Made by a program: the position numbers and the translations under genes. DNA of 59,370 bases from a virus. Below the pieces are notes generated by a model. The model did no database searches, was not told the DNA's origin, and saw only the letters and a list, made by a program, of their open reading frames with translations. Shown here piece after piece: positions 39,399 to 52,061 of this stretch (positions are counted from its first letter, which is position 1; each line of letters begins with the position of its first letter). Location: the IMG/VR virus record IMGVR_UViG_3300017917_005063, positions 1 through 59,370 of that record; one strand, given 5' to 3'.

Positions 39399-39494
39399 TC
39401 ACGGTCTCGATAAAGTCCAATTGCATAAAGCTTTATGCAATTCGTTTTTAGCCTCTTCTTTAGTCAGTTGCTTTTTTATTTTGCGATATTTCAT
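39399..39494 (-). CDS. 31-aa small basic protein overlapping the DUF3310 gene
   Basis: ATG at 39494 lies inside the 3' end of the DUF3310 gene, in another frame. The 31 residues are Lys-rich (YRKIKKQLTKEEAKNELHKA) and read like a real amphipathic helix. A palindrome (39419-39442) lies within the coding sequence. Too short to assign. Confidence 0.35.
   Translation of the reverse strand: MKYRKIKKQLTKEEAKNELHKALCNWTLSRP
39419..39442. repeat. 24-bp perfect palindrome
   Basis: The arm AATTGCATAAAG is followed directly by its exact complement. It is followed on the plus strand by TTCGTTTTTA. Candidate protein-binding site or weak terminator; also within the putative 31-aa gene. Confidence 0.55.
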
Positions 39495-40305
39495 TTTGTC
39501 TCTCTATTAATAACTCAAGATATTTTTTAGCTTTTAGCAAGTCCTCAAGACCGTTTTTTTGCTTATATCTTGACACATATTTAATTACATTACCCTCAAG
39601 AAAATCAAGGTTGTTTTTAACAATATAATCAATCGGCGATATTGCTAATTGGTAATGTTGCGGATTAGTATTGTCAATTGATTGAGTATCATTTTTATTT
39701 TCTTCTTTTATTTGTTGAATTAAATTACAATTAACTAGTCCATTGACTTCAGCATTGCCAGAAACTTTTGCATTACAATAAACTCTTGCATTGCCATAAA
39801 CTTTAGCATACTCAAAAACTTCAGGAACATCATAAACTTTAGCATAGTTAAAAACTTCAGCATTGCCATAAACTCTTGCATAGCCAAAAACTTTAGCTTT
39901 GCCAGAAACTCTTGCATCGCCAAAGACTTCAGATCTGCCAGAAACTCTTGCATCGCCACAAACTTCAGCATACCCACAAACTTTAGCATTGCCAAAAACT
40001 TCAGCACAGTAAAAAACTTCAGCATTACCAAAAACTTCAGCACAGTAAAAAACTTCAGCATAGTCAAAGACTTTAGCATTTTCAAAGACTTTAGCATTGT
40101 CATAAACTCTTGCATTGTCAAAAACTTTAGCATTATCATATATCCAGCAGTCTCCTTCATGACTAAGATTGCTCTCTTTTTCAACATAACCTCCAAGATC
40201 TCCAGCTTTTACATCGCTAAAACCTCTTAATGCTTGTATTCTATACAGTTTTGTATCATCTTCTAAAGTTATAAACTCTTCTGTTAATTTATATTTTTTT
40301 TCCAT
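39460..40305 (-). CDS. Hexapeptide beta-solenoid fused to DUF3310
   Basis: The frame gives 281 residues. Residues 1-50 are a beta N-terminus with LRGFSDVKAGDLGGYVEKES. About 20 hexapeptide-like units then follow (NAKVFD, NARVYD, YAEVFY, NAEVFG), a left-handed beta-helix pattern. Residues 195-281 form a DUF3310 domain: SPIDYIVKNNLDFLEGNVIK, then YVSRYKQKNGLEDLLKAKKY. DUF3310 occurs in phage nucleotide-metabolism regions. A ribosome site (AAAGGAG) lies upstream. The repeats produce antiparallel and shifted false frames. Confidence 0.75.
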   Translation of the reverse strand: MEKKYKLTEEFITLEDDTKLYRIQALRGFSDVKAGDLGGYVEKESNLSHEGDCWIYDNAKVFDNARVYDNAKVFENAKVFDYAEVFYCAEVFGNAEVFYCAEVFGNAKVCGYAEVCGDARVSGRSEVFGDARVSGKAKVFGYARVYGNAEVFNYAKVYDVPEVFEYAKVYGNARVYCNAKVSGNAEVNGLVNCNLIQQIKEENKNDTQSIDNTNPQHYQLAISPIDYIVKNNLDFLEGNVIKYVSRYKQKNGLEDLLKAKKYLELLIERQNEISQNKKATD

Positions 40306-41679: not shown

Positions 41680-42375
41680 TTAAAATAGATTACCTTGTTT
41701 TAATTCTGTTTCAATTCTTTTGCAGGATAAATCAAAATACTCGTTGTCAAGTTCGCAACCGATAAATCTACGATTAGTTTTTATGCAAGCAACTGCAGTA
41801 GTTCCTGAGCCACTAAAACCATCAAAAACAAGTTCGTTTTCATTACTGCCGAATATTGTTAATTTTGATATTAAATCAATAGGTTTTTCCGTAGGGTGAT
41901 TATTTTCTCTTTTTGTGTTATAGTTAAAAACCCTAGAATTATAAGCTCCATTAAAACTAGAGCCTGTTTCTCTTATATGAATTATGTATTCAACATCATG
42001 TAAATAAGTTTTGCCAAAAGGTCTGCCGCCTTTTTTCCAAGTAAGTAAATTAGTTTGCAACTTATTGTCAAAACCCCAATTCATAATTTCGGGAATTTGT
42101 CTAGTTGAGCAAAAGCAAAATAAGTTAAAAAAATTTGATATTTTCTTAAAAAGACTAAATGTATTTTTAATATCAAAACTAGAGGAGATTGTTTTGATAA
42201 AATTAATATTGTCTTCTTTTTCATCAAATCCTTTATTTCCTGCAGAATAATCTAAATACAAATATGGCGGATCAGTTAATACTAAATCCACCTTCTCCTG
42301 CATATTAGCCATAAAATCAAGGCAATCTGTGTTGTATAAAGTTATTCTTCCATTAAGAAACTCTTGCTTTGACAT
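41680..42375 (-). CDS. DNA methyltransferase (DPPY, N4/N6 class)
   Basis: The frame gives 231 residues. Motif IV DPPYLYLDY is near 36-44; C-terminal motif I FDGFSGSGTTAVACI near 186-200, followed by RFIGCELDNEYF. DPPY before the FxGxG motif indicates the beta class of amino-methyltransferases. It may protect phage DNA from restriction. No restriction enzyme gene is adjacent. A truncated paralogue lies at 44110-44280. It is 3 nt from thyX. Confidence 0.85.
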   Translation of the reverse strand: MSKQEFLNGRITLYNTDCLDFMANMQEKVDLVLTDPPYLYLDYSAGNKGFDEKEDNINFIKTISSSFDIKNTFSLFKKISNFFNLFCFCSTRQIPEIMNWGFDNKLQTNLLTWKKGGRPFGKTYLHDVEYIIHIRETGSSFNGAYNSRVFNYNTKRENNHPTEKPIDLISKLTIFGSNENELVFDGFSGSGTTAVACIKTNRRFIGCELDNEYFDLSCKRIETELKQGNLF

Positions 42376-43397: not shown

Positions 43398-43425
43398 ATT
43401 ATTTGTATATTTTTTTATTTGTCAA
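43398..43425 (-). promoter_or_regulatory. Minus-strand promoter before the ssb operon
   Basis: TTGACA (43420-43425) and AATAAT (43398-43403), spacer 16 bp. It reads into the 42789-43361 gene and then ssb, methyltransferase and thyX. Confidence 0.55.
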
Positions 43426-43474
43426 CGATTATTTACATTTATTATAAAAAAGTTTTTCAATTTTTACTAAACTA

Positions 43475-43930
43475 TTATTTGTTGAATTTGCCAATATTGC
43501 AATCTTTGCAAATTGTTTTTAAATTTTCTATATAATTATCTCCACCTTTTGAAATAGGTACAATATGATCTATTTGTAATTCTATATTTGCATCAATAGC
43601 TGGTGATTTTCCGCAATAATTGCATTTAAAGTTATCTCTTTTCATAACATCATATTTCAAACTATTGTTAATAGTTTTTCTTGATTTCCTAAATTGGCTT
43701 GGCTCTTGTAATTCTATTGCTCCGTTTTTATATTTTACAAATTCCATTAAAGCATTTTTCCAACTTCCAAATCTATTAAAGTAAGTGGCAAAGCATATTT
43801 TGCTTGGTGCTATTTGCATATCTTTAAGAAGTGGCTGGCTTTTTTTGAAATTCCATACTGTTTCTATATTATCAAAAAGCTCTTGTTTAGAGTATCTATT
43901 TGTAGTGTTTTTAAATTTTAGATTATACAT
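43475..43930 (-). CDS. HNH endonuclease with homing-type repeat
   Basis: The frame gives 151 residues. The N-terminal part has the homing-endonuclease-associated repeat pattern (YSKQELFDNIETVWNF ... YFNRFGSWKNALMEF). The C-terminal HNH shows CNYCGKSP, LQIDHIVPISKGGDN and NLKTICKDCNIGKFN, with two CxxC zinc pairs. It is a mobile DNA-cleaving gene type. It has its own promoter (43961-43989) and operator. It lies just after a dam remnant, as though it replaced the rest of that gene. Confidence 0.85.
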   Translation of the reverse strand: MYNLKFKNTTNRYSKQELFDNIETVWNFKKSQPLLKDMQIAPSKICFATYFNRFGSWKNALMEFVKYKNGAIELQEPSQFRKSRKTINNSLKYDVMKRDNFKCNYCGKSPAIDANIELQIDHIVPISKGGDNYIENLKTICKDCNIGKFNK

Positions 43931-43948
43931 TGTTTTTATAAAGTTATT

Positions 43949-43974
43949 AAAGTTATTATAACTATAACAACTTT
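43949..43974. promoter_or_regulatory. 26-bp palindrome over the HNH promoter
   Basis: An imperfect palindrome with outer arms AAAGTT/AACTTT and inner arms TTATA/TATAA, one mismatched pair. It covers the -10 box of the HNH promoter, so a bound protein would block transcription. Confidence 0.55.
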
Positions 43975-43989
43975 AATAATAATAATCAA
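43961..43989 (-). promoter_or_regulatory. Promoter of the HNH gene
   Basis: TTGATT (43984-43989) and TATAGT (43961-43966) are 17 bp apart on the minus strand. The -10 lies inside the 26-bp palindrome. Confidence 0.6.
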
Positions 43990-44109
43990 GTATATTTTTA
44001 TTATTTTTTGAAATAACTCAACAGCTACTTTATTTTTACTTCCCATATAGGGTATCCTTAATCCTAGACTTTCTGGTAATATTGGTCTGCCTAATAAATC
44101 AAAATTCAT

Positions 44110-44280
44110 TTATAAAAAACTTTTTTGTATTAATTCATTTTCAATTCTTTTGCAAGCCATATTGAAATATTCATTATTTAATTCACAACCAATAAATTTT
44201 CGGTTATTTTTAATACAAGCAACTGCAGTAGTTCCTGAGCCACTAAATGGATCAAAAATAAGTTCATTTTCTTGACTAGA
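44110..44280 (-). pseudogene. 3' fragment of a second DNA methyltransferase
   Basis: The last ~56 codons of a methyltransferase: ENELIFDPFSGSGTTAVACI, then KFIGCELNNEYFNMACKRIE and a short tail. It is close in DNA and protein to the end of the intact gene at 41680-42375, but not identical. It lacks the N-terminal DPPY part and breaks off at about 44280, where unrelated DNA with the MORN frame begins. Confidence 0.75.
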
Positions 44281-44435
44281 ATTTCGAATTATCGGAATTA
44301 AGAATTTCTAAGCTTCAATTCAAAGAGATAATTGAAATCAGATACCGTAAGGAATCAGATAGCTTTATCGAGACAAGTCGATACAACAAAACAGCAGAAA
44401 ATTCCTATAACTTAATCGGCAAATGTCAAGGAAAA

Positions 44436-45416
44436 ATGGTTGACAACCAATACAAAGGTAAGGCATTTTATGATTATTCAGACCTGCAAAGAAGTGTCGG
44501 ACTTAATAGCAACAATTATTATGGCGATTACATAAATGACAAAGCCAGCGGCAAAGGACGATTAACCAGTTGCAACCCTCAAGGCAAGATCGAATTCATA
44601 TATCAAGGCGAATTTGCAGGAAACAAACCGGAAGGAAAAGGAGTTTGCACTTTTTATCAAGAAGGCGTTATTGAGAAATACGAAGGGCAATGGGAAGATG
44701 GCAAAAAACACGGCATAGGCATCTATCACAACAAAAAAGGCACAAAGTATATTGGAGAATGGCAAAGAAACCAAAAGCACGGTCGAGCTATATTAATCAA
44801 CAAAGACGGCGGCGTATTTATTGGCAAATTTGCAGACGGCATTCCTTTTGAAGGCAGCGGCACAATCAAAGATGCTAAGGGCAATATTTACAGCGGGGAA
44901 TTAAAAGATGGCAAATTTACTGGAGAATGCGCCATCGATTTAGGCGGGGTTAAATATATTGGAGGATGCATAAATGATAAGAAAAACGGTTATGGCAAGC
45001 TATTTCTTGGCGACAGATCTTACGAAGGAGAATTTAGAGATGACAAAATGCACGGATTTGGGGTGCTGATCGAAAAAAATGGTAAAATATTTATAGGAGA
45101 GTGGAAAAATAACAAAAAAAATGGCTACTCCAGATCTTATCACAACAAAGAGCAATATGAAGGCGAGTATCAAGAAGACAAAAAACATGGAAAAGGAATT
45201 TTTATCAATTCCGAAGGAAAGCAATTTTTACAAATATGGGAACAAGATCAACTATTACAACAAAAAGAAATTAAACAACAAAGAGAATCTGGGCAAGATG
45301 GCAATATTCACAAGGCAATAAAGCAAAAAACCACTCCTTCAAACAATGTTTTAGCACCTTCTCAAGGATTGGACTTTAGAAGGTTACTTAAAAATATCGC
45401 TTGCATCAATCAGTAA
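44436..45416 (+). CDS. MORN-repeat protein, 5'-truncated at the junction
   Basis: The first ATG is 44436 (326 residues), but the frame is open without stop back to 44280, and the upstream part reads like protein (SFIETSRYNKTAENSYNLIG). The original start is therefore probably lost at the junction. The protein has about ten MORN repeats, e.g. YEGQWEDGKKHGIGIYHNKK and YEGEYQEDKKHGKGIFIN, then a Gln/Lys-rich tail. MORN proteins bind membranes or act as scaffolds and are common in bacteria that live with eukaryotes. Codon use looks less AT-rich than in the phage genes. Confidence 0.75.
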   Translation: MVDNQYKGKAFYDYSDLQRSVGLNSNNYYGDYINDKASGKGRLTSCNPQGKIEFIYQGEFAGNKPEGKGVCTFYQEGVIEKYEGQWEDGKKHGIGIYHNKKGTKYIGEWQRNQKHGRAILINKDGGVFIGKFADGIPFEGSGTIKDAKGNIYSGELKDGKFTGECAIDLGGVKYIGGCINDKKNGYGKLFLGDRSYEGEFRDDKMHGFGVLIEKNGKIFIGEWKNNKKNGYSRSYHNKEQYEGEYQEDKKHGKGIFINSEGKQFLQIWEQDQLLQQKEIKQQRESGQDGNIHKAIKQKTTPSNNVLAPSQGLDFRRLLKNIACINQ

Positions 45417-45732
45417 TATTTATCGCTGACTTTGAAGAATATTTTATTAGAATTTGCAAAAAAGTTCGACGCCGAAAAATAATTGCAAACTAACATAATA
45501 ATAACAATATCTTGCTAAAAGATAGATTGCAAGATTTCTCGAAAGGCTTTAATTTCTAGTCACAAGCCAGCGATATCTTGCAGAAAAATTGGCGATCGCC
45601 TCCCCCTAATCCTTGACATTAATATTTTAACTTCTAAAAATAAATTAACAGGAAGGAGTTTTGATTTGGAGATTTTACCCGACAAACAATAACTTATGCA
45701 CTATTTTTTTAATAAATTTACAATTTCATTTT
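45417..45732 (+). other. Intergenic region before parA
   Basis: No gene seen. It contains the 10-bp palindrome GGCGATCGCC (45591-45600), a candidate promoter and the ribosome site GGAAGGAG (45651-45658). That site would fit a start near 45665 better than the ATG at 45733, so parA may start with an alternative codon or the site may serve a lost start. Confidence 0.5.
45613..45640 (+). promoter_or_regulatory. Candidate parA promoter
   Basis: TTGACA (45613-45618), then a weak TAAAAA -10 (45635-45640) at 16 bp. Confidence 0.4.
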
Positions 45733-46887
45733 ATGGCAGAAATCATTACACTCTTTAGTCACAAGGGTGGTGTTGGTAAAACAACAGCCGCACAAAACAT
45801 CGCCGTATCTTTAACTAAAAGAGGTAAAAATGTATTACTAATCGATGCCGATGCGCAAATGAATTTAACATCTTCAGTATTAGGCTTATCAGACTCGGTA
45901 GAATATGCTGAAACAAATGAATCAAAATGGAATCAGTTATGTGCAGAATATACAAACATTAAGGATTATCTTGACTGGTATACTGCAAAAGACACGCGAA
46001 TCAAAGAGCTTGATATCAAGCTTTTTGATTACAATCCAAAGAATATCTATCCTGATTTATTTCAAGCTCAGGAAAGAGGTATATTATCATTACTACTTGG
46101 GCATATTAAGATCTTTGAAATTGAGGCAACGCTTTATAACATATCAAAAACAGTGCGAGATAGTAATAAATTTTACTTAATACAGGAGGGTATTAAAAGT
46201 CTCGCATCTTGGAATGGGAGAAAATACGACTACATTATCGTAGATACTTCCCCAAGTGCAAGTAGCATTTTAAACGGCACATTGCTGATGATGTCGGACT
46301 ACTTTTTATGCCCTGTATTGCCTAATTTCTTTTCATTGCAGGCGATTGATAATTTGCAGGAAATTGTAAAACATTGGGTATCATCGCTAGATGACTTTCG
46401 TGCGACAACAAATACTCGTGGCTTGACCTTTGCACCAAAATTTATTGGAATTGTAATTAATGTTGCCAAAAGATTCAAGAAAGACAATTCGCGGGAAGTT
46501 ACAAAATATGCCGAAAAATGGCGTGAAAAAATTAACACGAGCGTTAACAAATTTTGTAAATACGCATTTGATTGCGATCGCTTGTTAACAAAAGATAAAT
46601 TCGCTGTCGCATTTCCAGATTCAAGCCCTTACATAATATCAGAAATTTGTGATTTTACTGGCAATTTGCGAAGTGTTGGCGAAATAACTGGCATTCCAAT
46701 TGTCGATCTAAACAACGCAATTGTACAAGATGGGTGTGGGAAGTTAGGAATTAGTCCATTCACAATAGAAAAAGTAAAAAAAGACACAGGAGACGATCAT
46801 TATAAAAGAGCATTTTCCGAAGCCTGTAAATCTTACGATTATATCGCTGAAGGTATTCTTAAGCTGCCAAAAAAAACTTCGACTTAA
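45733..46887 (+). CDS. parA: ParA-family partition ATPase
   Basis: The frame gives 384 residues from ATG 45733, which gives the standard start AEIITLFSHKGGVGKTT. Deviant Walker A KGGVGKTT is at 11-18; LLIDADAQMNL follows (Walker A'), and YDYIIVDTSPSASSILN is Walker B. ParA proteins position plasmids or chromosomes with a ParB and parS sites; neither is recognised nearby. Presence in a phage could mean a plasmid-like prophage or cargo from a plasmid. An in-frame TTG at 45661 is possible but adds an unlikely leader. Confidence 0.85.
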   Translation: MAEIITLFSHKGGVGKTTAAQNIAVSLTKRGKNVLLIDADAQMNLTSSVLGLSDSVEYAETNESKWNQLCAEYTNIKDYLDWYTAKDTRIKELDIKLFDYNPKNIYPDLFQAQERGILSLLLGHIKIFEIEATLYNISKTVRDSNKFYLIQEGIKSLASWNGRKYDYIIVDTSPSASSILNGTLLMMSDYFLCPVLPNFFSLQAIDNLQEIVKHWVSSLDDFRATTNTRGLTFAPKFIGIVINVAKRFKKDNSREVTKYAEKWREKINTSVNKFCKYAFDCDRLLTKDKFAVAFPDSSPYIISEICDFTGNLRSVGEITGIPIVDLNNAIVQDGCGKLGISPFTIEKVKKDTGDDHYKRAFSEACKSYDYIAEGILKLPKKTST

Positions 46888-46964
46888 TTTGCAGGAAAAT
46901 AATCTAACCGATCAAATAAATTTTAATATACGAAAATTTGTGCAATAACAAAATGGTTTTGAAA

Positions 46965-47175
46965 TCAATTAAAACACCCTTCTTTTATCATCAAATCAAG
47001 TAAAGTCTTTTTTGCTTGCAAGCCTCCAGCGTTGCTAGATCTATCGCCGACTTCTCCGCTTGTGTGAATTGCATAGGAAATAATCTGTTCGTTTTTTTCT
47101 GCAAAACCAACGAAATAACCCTCTACGAAATAACCCTCTTTTACATTAGATAAATTTTGCGATTTCCTATCGCCA
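46965..47175 (-). pseudogene. C-terminal remnant of a penicillin-binding/class D lactamase-type gene
   Basis: An open stretch of about 70 codons without a start. The segment EGYFVGFAEKNEQIISYAI, then SSNAGGLQAKKTLLDLM, recalls the last strands and helix of penicillin-binding transpeptidases or class D beta-lactamases ('G(W/Y)FVGFxE'). A 15-bp tandem duplication encodes GYFVEGYFVG. The 5' part is missing up to the end of the peptidase gene. Family is uncertain. Confidence 0.35.
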
Positions 47176-47179
47176 AAAA

Positions 47180-49048
47180 TTAAAATTGCCGACCAAGAAA
47201 ATGGGCTTCAATCTTGTCGATATAGCTAGAAATAAGATCAAGTCCTCCCTGCCAAAACGCTGGCGATTTTAAATCGAGTGCAAAAGGCTCGATTGCCTTG
47301 CTGTATTTCTCGCTACCGCCCTTTTTCAGAAGCTCAAGGTATTTTTCTTCGAAATTGCTAATTTTTCCACTACAATAAGATGCATATAAAGAATTTACCA
47401 AACAATCGCCAAATGCGTAGGCGTAGACATAAAATGGCGAATGAATAAAATGAGGAATATAGCACCAAAAATATCGGTAATCGCCATCGAAATCAAAAGC
47501 ATCGCCAAGACTTTCTTGCTGGACTTCTAGCCAAAAGTTACAAATTTGATCGACCGATAACTCGCCGCTTTTTCTTGCGTTATGGATTCTAGTCTCAAAT
47601 TCTAAGAAAGCGATTTGCCTAATTGTTGTGTTAATCATATCTTCAACTTTATTGGCAATAACTAACATCTTCTGTTGCAAATTCTTTTGCTCTTTGAGAA
47701 TTCTCTGAAAAACCAACTGCTCGCCGAAAACCGAGGCAGTTTCCGCTAAAGTTAGCGGAGTTTGGCTAGCGAAAAAACCCCGATCTCTTGCCAAAAACTG
47801 GTGAATCCCATGTCCTAATTCATGAGCTAAAGTGGCAACATCCCTGATTTTTCCTTGATAGTTCATGAGAATATAAGGATGAACACTAGGAACAGCAGGA
47901 TGCGAGAACGCTCCAGAGTCCTTAGCGTTGAGTGGCTTTGCATCAATCCAGCGATGCTCAAAAAATTTATTCGCAATAACTGCCATTTCTGGATGAAAAT
48001 CAGCATAAGCCTGTAAAACTAAAGCCCTGGCATCGCTAAAATCAATTAACCGCTCTGTTTTTTTCTGTAAAGGAGCGTTGCGATCCCAGAATTTTAATTT
48101 CTCTAAACCAAGAATTTTTGCCTTAATTTTGTAGTAACGATGAGCGATTTGACGATAATTTACTTTTACCTGATTAATCATTGTTGCAACAACTTCATCT
48201 TCGATATTATTTGCAACATTTCTTGCTGCAATAACGGTTTTAAAGCCTCGGCATCGATCATCAATCGCCTTGTCTTTTGCCAAAATATTGGTAATAAAGG
48301 CGAAGGTTTTGATATTTTCTGCAAAAGTCTTTGCAATTGATTTTGCCGCCTTCTCTCTTGTCAATCTTCGGTTGTTAGCCATCAAATTAAAGGCTTCTTG
48401 CGAATTAATCTTACGACCAGCATAGTCAAATTGTAAATTGGTCACCGTTTCATCGAATAATCTTACCCAAGCATTGTTCGCCACTGCCGATTTCTCGATT
48501 AAAATCTTTTCAACTTCTTCGCTAAGTTGGTATTGGCGATAGCTACGAACATTAGCAACAAACTCTACAAAATCCTTGAGCTTAGGCGATTTTAACATCA
48601 TATTCAAACGATCTTCGCTGATTTTGTTTATCTCAAGAGAAAAGAAAACCAAACGAGACTCTTGTTCGTTAACTTTCTCGGTAATATTTTGAAAGAAAGA
48701 GATGATTTGCTGATTTGATAGATTTTTTGCATAATTAAGATAGGCAAAACAAGCAATTTTTGCAAAGACTTCGCTAATATGCTGATAGTCGCTGATTGCA
48801 GAAAATAAAAAATCTTCATCTTGGTTGTTGGCAATATTTAGATGGTATTGATCGATAAATTTATCAACCCTTGAAACATTTTCTAAAAAATCATTATCAA
48901 TTTCTGGGTCAGCAATTGACTTATAAAGATCGTCAAGATTCCATTCTGGCAGAACATCTGGCAAGGATTTACTATTTTCCTCAACCTGAATATTTTTGCT
49001 TTGCAAATTGCTGGTGGCGGATTTTTTTCTGTCGAATTTCTTTTTCAT
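47180..49048 (-). CDS. pepF: Oligoendopeptidase F, M3 family
   Basis: The frame gives 622 residues, close to the family length. A cytoplasmic zinc peptidase that degrades short peptides. HELGHGIHQF (HExxH) near residue 409 is the zinc site; the downstream ETASVFGEQLVF supplies the third ligand region. Flanking SHPAVPSVHPYILMNYQGK is also typical. The first ~35 residues are an extra basic tail. Complete and apparently functional, and unusual as phage cargo; it looks like a normal bacterial housekeeping gene. Confidence 0.9.
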   Translation of the reverse strand: MKKKFDRKKSATSNLQSKNIQVEENSKSLPDVLPEWNLDDLYKSIADPEIDNDFLENVSRVDKFIDQYHLNIANNQDEDFLFSAISDYQHISEVFAKIACFAYLNYAKNLSNQQIISFFQNITEKVNEQESRLVFFSLEINKISEDRLNMMLKSPKLKDFVEFVANVRSYRQYQLSEEVEKILIEKSAVANNAWVRLFDETVTNLQFDYAGRKINSQEAFNLMANNRRLTREKAAKSIAKTFAENIKTFAFITNILAKDKAIDDRCRGFKTVIAARNVANNIEDEVVATMINQVKVNYRQIAHRYYKIKAKILGLEKLKFWDRNAPLQKKTERLIDFSDARALVLQAYADFHPEMAVIANKFFEHRWIDAKPLNAKDSGAFSHPAVPSVHPYILMNYQGKIRDVATLAHELGHGIHQFLARDRGFFASQTPLTLAETASVFGEQLVFQRILKEQKNLQQKMLVIANKVEDMINTTIRQIAFLEFETRIHNARKSGELSVDQICNFWLEVQQESLGDAFDFDGDYRYFWCYIPHFIHSPFYVYAYAFGDCLVNSLYASYCSGKISNFEEKYLELLKKGGSEKYSKAIEPFALDLKSPAFWQGGLDLISSYIDKIEAHFLGRQF

Positions 49049-49116
49049 TGTCGAAGCGATTTAATTGTTAGCGGGTTGACATAAATATAAGGCAATATGA
49101 AGAAATATTATTGCAA

Positions 49117-49150
49117 GATTAAGCAGCCTGAAGCGAATAGCTGCTTAATC
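49117..49150. repeat. Hairpin with perfect 11-bp arms upstream of pepF
   Basis: GATTAAGCAGC (49117-49127) and GCTGCTTAATC (49140-49150) with a 12-nt loop. No T-run, so not a typical terminator. It may also be part of a short coding remnant (FDKVLDEIKQLFASG on the minus strand). Confidence 0.5.
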
Positions 49151-49212
49151 TCGTCAAGCACTTTGTCAAATGGGTTTTTGCTAGGACTGTTTCTGACCTA
49201 ATTGCATTTTAA

Positions 49213-49404
49213 TTATTGCCCATCACGATTCGAGTGATCAAGACCACTACTTTTAACTAAATCATCAAAACTTTTTTTGAAAGATTCTTGTCTTTGTTGT
49301 TCAGTTTTGTTGTCAGGAGGTTTCCGAGATACTCCACTCTTAATAGAGTTGAATGCCCCCTTAATTCCTTCTTTAATTTTTGAAGTAGGACTAGAGTAAG
49401 ACAT
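49213..49404 (-). CDS. 63-aa hydrophilic protein
   Basis: The start at 49404 (MSYSSPTSK) is preferred: it follows AACAAGGCG, 8 nt after the stop of the DUF4116 gene. A longer in-frame version to 49476 would overlap that gene. Residues include KIKEGIKGAFNSIKSGVS and a Gln/Lys/Ser-rich end. Unknown function; it appears to be the last gene before the foreign segment. Confidence 0.5.
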   Translation of the reverse strand: MSYSSPTSKIKEGIKGAFNSIKSGVSRKPPDNKTEQQRQESFKKSFDDLVKSSGLDHSNRDGQ

Positions 49405-49411
49405 CGCCTTG

Positions 49412-49798
49412 TTAACTTGCATAAGATAAAGCCCAACCATATTTCTTAACCGCTTCAAGAACCACTTCTTTATCATTTCTTAACTCTTCGCTTGCATATT
49501 TCAAATTAAAAATATGTTGTTTAAGCAGGTGTAAAACTACTTCTTTATTACCCATTAACTCCTTACCAACATATTCCAAAGCACGTTGATCTTGCTTTAC
49601 TACATTAATAATAAAATTTTTATCATTTCTTAGCTCCTCACTTGCATATTCTAAAGCACAATAATCTTGCTTAACTGCCTCTAAAACCACTTCTTTATCT
49701 CCTCTTAGCTCCTCACTAGCAAGTAGCAAAATCCAACCATTTTGCTTAACTAACTCAAGAACAAATTCTTTATTGTTCCAATTTCCTGTATTTTTCAT
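49412..49798 (-). CDS. DUF4116 repeat protein
   Basis: The frame gives 128 residues made almost wholly of five repeats of ~25 residues, e.g. DYCALEYASEELRNDKNFII and KQDQRALEYVGKELMGNKEVV. DUF4116 repeats occur mainly in bacteria and viruses linked with protists; role unknown, possibly protein binding. A shorter relative lies at 51891-52061, and the first ~12 residues of the two are similar (NTENWNDKDF / NTGNWNNKEF). Confidence 0.8.
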   Translation of the reverse strand: MKNTGNWNNKEFVLELVKQNGWILLLASEELRGDKEVVLEAVKQDYCALEYASEELRNDKNFIINVVKQDQRALEYVGKELMGNKEVVLHLLKQHIFNLKYASEELRNDKEVVLEAVKKYGWALSYAS

Positions 49799-49823
49799 TT
49801 TGTTTTTATTTAAAGTTATTTTT

Positions 49824-50147
49824 TTAGTTTTGATATTTTAACATTCTATTAGTTAATTCTATCAAGCCTTCTTGGTCGATGCCAAATTTTTCTTCAAAAG
49901 CAATTCTGCCGATATTATGAAAAGCAAACTCACCGTTTTGGTGATGCTCGTCACACAAAGCCATAACCCTTAAATCGCTTGCTTTTTTACCTAGTCCACC
50001 GCCGTGGTAATGATGGACTGTTGTTCTTGTTTTTTGTTTTTGATTAATAAAAAAACAAAGGGTGCAAGGTAATTTTGCTACTCTTTCTAAATGTTTAGGG
50101 TCTTTATAGCCATTTCGTAAAGTATGGTCTGGTTTTAAATTATTCAT
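49824..50147 (-). CDS. Ref/DUF968-like HNH nuclease
   Basis: The frame gives 107 residues. The pattern ERVAKLPCTLC, TTVHHYHGGGLGKKASDLRV, MALCDEHHQ and FAFHNIGRIAFEEKFG matches the Ref recombination-enhancement nuclease family of phages, with Cys and His zinc ligands. Such proteins act with RecA or RecT-type recombination. It directly follows dUTPase. Confidence 0.8.
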   Translation of the reverse strand: MNNLKPDHTLRNGYKDPKHLERVAKLPCTLCFFINQKQKTRTTVHHYHGGGLGKKASDLRVMALCDEHHQNGEFAFHNIGRIAFEEKFGIDQEGLIELTNRMLKYQN

Positions 50148-50594
50148 TTATTTACTACCTGTTGATCCAAAACCGCCTTCGCCCCTTTCGGTCTCACTTA
50201 ACTCATCGACAAAATCAAATCTTACTTTTTCGTGTTTCATTAAAACGGCTTGGGCTATTCTGTCGCCTTCGTTAATAACAAAATCAACATTGCCAGCATT
50301 GTAAATAATAGCTTGTATCTCGCCCCTGTAGTCGCTATCTACGACACCAACAGCATTGCCTAGGGTGATGTTATGTTTTAAGGCTAAACCGCTTCTAGGA
50401 TGTATTGCCAAATAAAAGCCGTCAGGGATTTCCATTTGCAAGCCTGTAGGCACTAGGGCATTTTTGCCAGCAGGGATAACAATCGGTTCTTTGCCGATAT
50501 ATTTTAAATCGAAGCCTGCGGCCCCTGATGTTTGATAAAATTTACCGTCATAAATTTCTTTTGCATTTCGCAAAAGGACTGTTTTAGTTCTCAT
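50148..50594 (-). CDS. dut: dUTPase
   Basis: The frame gives 148 residues, trimeric dUTPase type. Motifs in order: AAGFDL near 24-29, PRSGLALKHN near 68-77, NAVGVVDSDYRGEI near 83-96, GDRIAQAVL near 112 and the C-terminal GEGGFGSTGSK. It converts dUTP to dUMP, feeding ThyX and keeping uracil out of DNA. It overlaps the preceding gene by 11 nt. Confidence 0.94.
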   Translation of the reverse strand: MRTKTVLLRNAKEIYDGKFYQTSGAAGFDLKYIGKEPIVIPAGKNALVPTGLQMEIPDGFYLAIHPRSGLALKHNITLGNAVGVVDSDYRGEIQAIIYNAGNVDFVINEGDRIAQAVLMKHEKVRFDFVDELSETERGEGGFGSTGSK

Positions 50595-51890: not shown

Positions 51891-52061
51891 TCAATATGAA
51901 GAATATCTTTCCAGTAAAGCCCTACCATTTCGCTTAATCGCCGTAAGAACTACTTCTTTATCATTCCGTAGCTCGTAACTTGCATAATACAAATCCAAAC
52001 CATTTTGCTTAACTTTCTCCAGAGCGAAGTCTTTATCGTTCCAATTTTCTGTATTTGTCAT
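51891..52061 (-). CDS. Short DUF4116 protein
   Basis: ATG 52061, TGA 51891-51893, 56 residues. Two DUF4116-type repeats: NWNDKDFALEKVKQNGLDLY and YASYELRNDKEVVLTAIK. It may be a shortened copy of the 49412-49798 gene. It is the first gene downstream of the promoter and palindrome at 52095-52145. Confidence 0.65.
   Translation of the reverse strand: MTNTENWNDKDFALEKVKQNGLDLYYASYELRNDKEVVLTAIKRNGRALLERYSSY

Follow-up and report, generated by a model that had tools for sequence, protein, structure and literature searches.

A probable 5.1 kb Rickettsiales-type segment in place of accessory DNA of a tailed phage

Gene content of the locus and of its counterpart in a sister phage

The window analysed here, i.e. 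the whole 59.4 kb viral record IMGVR_UViG_3300017917_005063 from IMG/VR (59370 nucleotides), carries the tailed-phage genes for a terminase, baseplate J, a tail collar protein, RecT and a RecE/YqaJ exonuclease. Between 38.5 and 59 kb its recognizable genes lie on the minus strand, with the exception of two plus-strand genes at 44.4–46.9 kb, which encode a MORN-repeat protein and a ParA-type ATPase. These two genes belong to a 5.1 kb stretch (approx. 44287–49414), referred to here as the cargo, which holds complete genes for ParA and the oligoendopeptidase PepF, as well as the MORN-repeat gene. The features of the locus are listed below, where L113 denotes a sister phage.

43406–44109, minus strand: left phage flank, with an HNH endonuclease gene (43475–43930) and a 57-residue scrap (43936–44109); 95% nucleotide identity with L113 19928–19223
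44110–44292, minus strand: 3′ tail of a methyltransferase gene, 5′ part missing; PF01555 positions 173–219, E 2.5e-18
44287–44295, no strand: left boundary of the bacterial cargo with phage DNA, where the methyltransferase homology ends
44436–45416, plus strand: MORN-repeat protein gene, 326 residues; PF02493, seven repeat stretches, E 3.9e-32
45733–46887, plus strand: stand-alone ParA-type ATPase, 384 residues, apparently complete; PF13614, E 3.6e-28
47180–49048, minus strand: oligoendopeptidase F (PepF, peptidase M3), 622 residues, complete, with an HELGH zinc motif; PF01432, E 2.2e-48
49213–49412, minus strand: ORF tail without its 5′ part; coding score approx. 2.8 S.D. above shuffles in its frame
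49412–49416 (approx. 49414), no strand: right boundary of the cargo with phage DNA; alignments of the DUF4116 repeat, both to L113 and to other units in the window, stop at approx. 49415
Approx. 49413–49798, minus strand: phage DUF4116 repeat gene without its 3′ end; PF13475, E 4.9e-57; 75% nucleotide identity with L113 8311–7947
49815–50594, minus strand: right phage flank, with a DUF968-like gene and a dUTPase gene; 91% and 79% nucleotide identity with L113 18382–18051 and 17199–16501
53329–55212, minus strand: RecE/YqaJ-type exonuclease and RecT annealing protein; PF09588, E 1e-8, and PF03837, E 1e-20; phrog_434 and phrog_148

The first-pass annotation of this DNA had proposed a comparison with related phages lacking the interval 44.28–49.2 kb, and such a phage was found. 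L113 (IMGVR_UViG_3300044638_008875, 30.8 kb) is collinear with the window over 38.1–59.2 kb, with 72–96% nucleotide identity over the matched pieces, and has both flanks of the locus in the same order, at 95% identity for window positions 43406–44110 and 91% for 49815–50149. Between these flanks it holds 841 bp of other genes, comprising a 187-residue ORF to which no function is assigned and a 106-residue ORF weakly resembling GNAT acetyltransferases, and it contains none of MORN, ParA, PepF or the methyltransferase tail. A search for further phages with the right flank returned only L113 again. As L113 is without the cargo, the methyltransferase tail and an intact methyltransferase gene found at 41680–42375 of the window, gene content at the locus varies between close relatives, and we regard the locus, from this comparison of genomes, as a probable cargo-swapping site in an accessory region.

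The HNH endonuclease (PF01844, E 7.6e-12), which is 98.7% identical in L113, lies approx. 0.36 kb from the left edge of the cargo. The 57-residue scrap adjoining this homing-type endonuclease produced no Pfam score, and resembles the N-terminal end of a D12-type adenine methyltransferase (IPYMGSKNKVAVELF); a second methyltransferase gene, from which the scrap would derive, may have been split by the endonuclease. The intact methyltransferase paralogue at 41680–42375, located between thyX and ssb, has 78% DNA identity with the tail over 44110–44277, and since it is missing from the sister phage it, too, appears to have been gained or lost recently as a module.

The two edges of the cargo

At the left edge, the methyltransferase tail derives from an N4/N6 DNA methyltransferase and shows 72% amino acid identity with its best intact relative, found in L127. 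It was annotated at first as a minus-strand remnant cut at approx. 44280, and the loss of its 5′ part is borne out by our analysis, but homology with L127 passes that position. DNA identity with the intact L127 gene runs exactly to 44286 (GCGAAATTCTAGTCAAGAAAATGA compared with TTCGAAATTCTAGTCAAGAAAATGA), and at the protein level the likeness extends for two more codons (LLRNSSQENEL compared with IIRNSSQENEL in L127). The PF01555 match begins at the fifth residue of the ORF at 44110–44307 (minus strand), i.e. from approx. 44295, and the motif (L/I)(L/I)RNSSQENEL and the Pfam alignment together reach approx. 44292–44295. Because DNA identity, protein motif and Pfam alignment all continue past 44280, we place the left break at 44287–44295. 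The tail itself is absent from L113, in which homology to the left of it stops at 44110, a gene boundary, and the tail therefore belongs to the variable part of the locus.

On the cargo side of this junction, the MORN frame had been described as open from 44280 without a start until 44436, and this stands with a small shift, as the frame is open back to 44283 and its first start codon is the ATG at 44436. The residues upstream had further been said to look like real protein. Coding potential was scored with a codon-usage model trained on 56 Rickettsiales ORFs, an earlier model from three cargo genes having been too small to tell frames apart, and the upstream frame scored only approx. 0.8 S.D. 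above shuffles, yet ranked first among the six frames. In shuffles, an equally long open stretch upstream of the ATG arises in that frame with P = 0.047 by chance, no MORN repeat (PF02493) scored upstream of 44436, and no homologue of the N-terminal extension was found in the genomes and viral contigs searched. In addition, an AAGGA at 44428–44432 lies three bases before the ATG. Given these results, truncation of the MORN gene at the left junction is possible, but unproven; of the two genes said to be cut at the same site, the break is upheld for the methyltransferase and unproven for MORN.

A second, matching break lies at approx. 49414, which the first-pass annotation did not include. Here the DUF4116 gene stops inside a repeat unit, and the frame of the ORF tail at 49213–49412, for which the searches returned only chance-level matches and no homologue, continues into the DUF4116 DNA; the right edge thus mirrors the left in that two partial genes meet. 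How many DUF4116 repeat genes there are, and where they lie, also varies between the sister phages: they occupy 7353–9914 in L113, and 49413–49798 and 51891–52061 in the window.

Composition and ancestry of the cargo

The cargo has a GC content of 35.7%, compared with a phage mean of 28.2% (S.D. 1.9; maximum 33.8%) over 440 overlapping pieces of equal size, and its tetranucleotide profile falls outside the phage range. The GC fraction is 0.35–0.37 in each of MORN, ParA, PepF and the ORF tail. Promoter-like sites in the cargo number 21, compared with 21.0 in shuffles, and terminator-like sites four, compared with 4.6.

The nearest relative of PepF, with 61% identity, is a protein of the Rickettsiales genome G256, and in the tree the two are sisters (support 99/98) inside a Rickettsiales clade (98/100). 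The PepF branch is approximately three times the median length (0.76 compared with 0.25), pointing either to an unsampled donor or to rapid evolution of the gene after its capture. Full-length automatic patterns gave no hits in the genome scan for PepF, and a conserved 67-residue stretch succeeded. ParA has up to 44% identity with Rickettsiales ParA proteins, and of the 263 genomes of that order, 11 have this type of ParA (below 1e-25), standing as a single gene among housekeeping-type genes in the neighbourhoods that were read. No ParB partner or second partition gene, such as a plasmid or phage-plasmid partition locus would have beside ParA, was found among the cargo ORFs. MORN matches were present in six of these 11 genomes, compared with 20 of the 263 overall (Fisher P 3e-5, which is only indicative as the genomes are related). 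No genome was found in which MORN, ParA and PepF lie side by side, and searches of viral contigs for PepF and MORN found none. Taken together, the cargo apparently originates from a Rickettsiales bacterium.

The phage family phrog_27765, to which no function is assigned, matches PepF nearly full-length (E 1.7e-87); other phages therefore carry PepF-like peptidases.

Capture of the segment and competing explanations

Given the edges and the composition of the cargo, we propose that the junction at approx. 44290 marks the left end of a 5.1 kb Rickettsiales-type segment that took the place of some of the accessory DNA of a tailed phage, a reading to which we assign a probability of roughly 0.7. 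As a second boundary lies at approx. 49414, the event is best described as a two-edged, substitution-type capture of bacterial DNA, and not a single join. The first-pass annotation had offered either illegitimate recombination, with insertion or deletion of cargo, or an assembly join; the 5.1 kb of bacterial DNA between flanks that are collinear in L113 supports recombination of cargo, and an assembly join is unlikely, as two false joins would be needed.

In this proposal the segment would have entered as one fragment, through non-homologous or very-short-homology joining during phage replication, possibly with help from the RecT and the RecE-like exonuclease of the phage, or from a cut by the HNH endonuclease encoded nearby. 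The simplest history would be a single replacement in which the methyltransferase gene lost its 5′ part and the DUF4116 gene its 3′ end, and the segment may have been kept because nothing essential lies at the site. Diverged DNA can be recombined by the Rad52-like recombinases of phages, RecT among them (PMC3945230), and the present phage has the same class of recombinase together with an exonuclease, at a locus that varies between close relatives. In contrast with the exchanges described there, homology between the cargo edge and the phage could not be shown here, and the cargo edge has no parental sequence, so that microhomology cannot be read; relaxed homology is thus only a possibility. 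The same paper makes the case that exchange driven by homology is far more frequent than purely illegitimate joining, which counts against our proposal.

The main rival to capture as one fragment is a stepwise mosaic, in which MORN, ParA, PepF and the ORF tail were acquired in a number of independent exchanges, either with phages or with bacteria. That no genome has MORN, ParA and PepF together tells against a single-fragment origin, as the cargo could sum several events, and no donor with the whole block was found. The cargo-swapping nature of the site, at which L113 has different genes while also being without the methyltransferase at 41680–42375, is likewise in keeping with repeated exchange, as is the existence of PepF-like and ParA-like phage families (phrog_27765 and phrog_164). 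Against this, GC is raised in all of the cargo genes and partial genes sit only at the outer ends, and we consider a stepwise history unlikely. The second rival, an assembly chimera in which Rickettsiales and phage contigs from the same metagenome were joined in silico, would account for the sharp change in composition over the segment in what is an IMG/VR contig, and no second viral contig with the cargo was found. Such a chimera would, however, need two false joins that both lead back to one phage and one locus. The flanks are collinear in L113, which holds other genes at what is an already variable site, and the longest repeat common to the edges, 7 bp, is too short to confuse an assembler; we therefore judge it very unlikely.

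A discrete segment of accessory genes that includes ParA might also suggest a transposon or other recombinase-driven element, and the 7 bp word GACTAGA occurs near both edges. However, no transposase or integrase is present among MORN, ParA, PepF and the ORF tail, and there are no terminal inverted repeats at the edges (longest inverted match 5 bp). GACTAGA, the best word common to both edges, was considered as a target duplication and rejected, as it lies away from the breakpoints and has P = 0.18. The original observation that neither a transposase nor an obvious direct repeat marks the site is thus confirmed, and insertion of a mobile element is largely refuted and, in our estimate, extremely improbable.

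Capture of a bacterial segment places the locus close to the mosaic junctions and 'moron' loci of tailed phages, in which cargo of different origin and composition lies between conserved genes and differs in a close relative; as in such loci, breaks fall in neighbouring genes of a phage that has RecT and an exonuclease. Morons are compact genes with their own promoter and terminator; the present cargo differs in consisting of bacterial DNA of housekeeping type (PepF), and at least two of the phage genes bordering it are incomplete. There is also a resemblance to the eukaryotic association module of phage WO (PMC5062602) in the extra repeat-protein genes (MORN and DUF4116) of a phage that probably infects a host-associated alphaproteobacterium. 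In contrast with that module, the cargo genes are bacterial-type, and no eukaryote-derived gene was found. It is improbable, in our view, that the captured MORN, ParA and PepF are functional and alter the bacterial host, a host-associated alphaproteobacterium, or its eukaryotic partner, in infection, with the locus by the HNH gene serving as a dedicated cargo-collecting site.

To our knowledge, few phages have been tied to Rickettsiales. The present case documents a multi-gene Rickettsiales-type block captured by a phage, in which both edges have been located and a relative shows the empty site, and it connects a phage lineage that is uncultured with a probable group of donors; it is otherwise ordinary phage genome mosaicism, one more instance of a type of event already known. 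As clues to the host of the phage, TerL gave weak matches in two of the 263 Rickettsiales genomes, and ThyX, present in most genomes at approx. 40% identity, was uninformative. The phage terminase and a 535-residue phage protein (14293–15900) had no homologues in viral contigs, and Rfam and tRNA searches found none. A further variable gene of the phage is the ORF at 39460–40305, which contains approx. 18 tandem 18 bp units encoding six-residue repeats such as NAKVFG. Its alignment with L113 is limited to the C-terminal 60 residues (90%), and with L127 it has a 75-residue N-terminal part in common (61%); as L113 aligns only C-terminally and L127 N-terminally, the repeat part of this ORF appears to have been exchanged.
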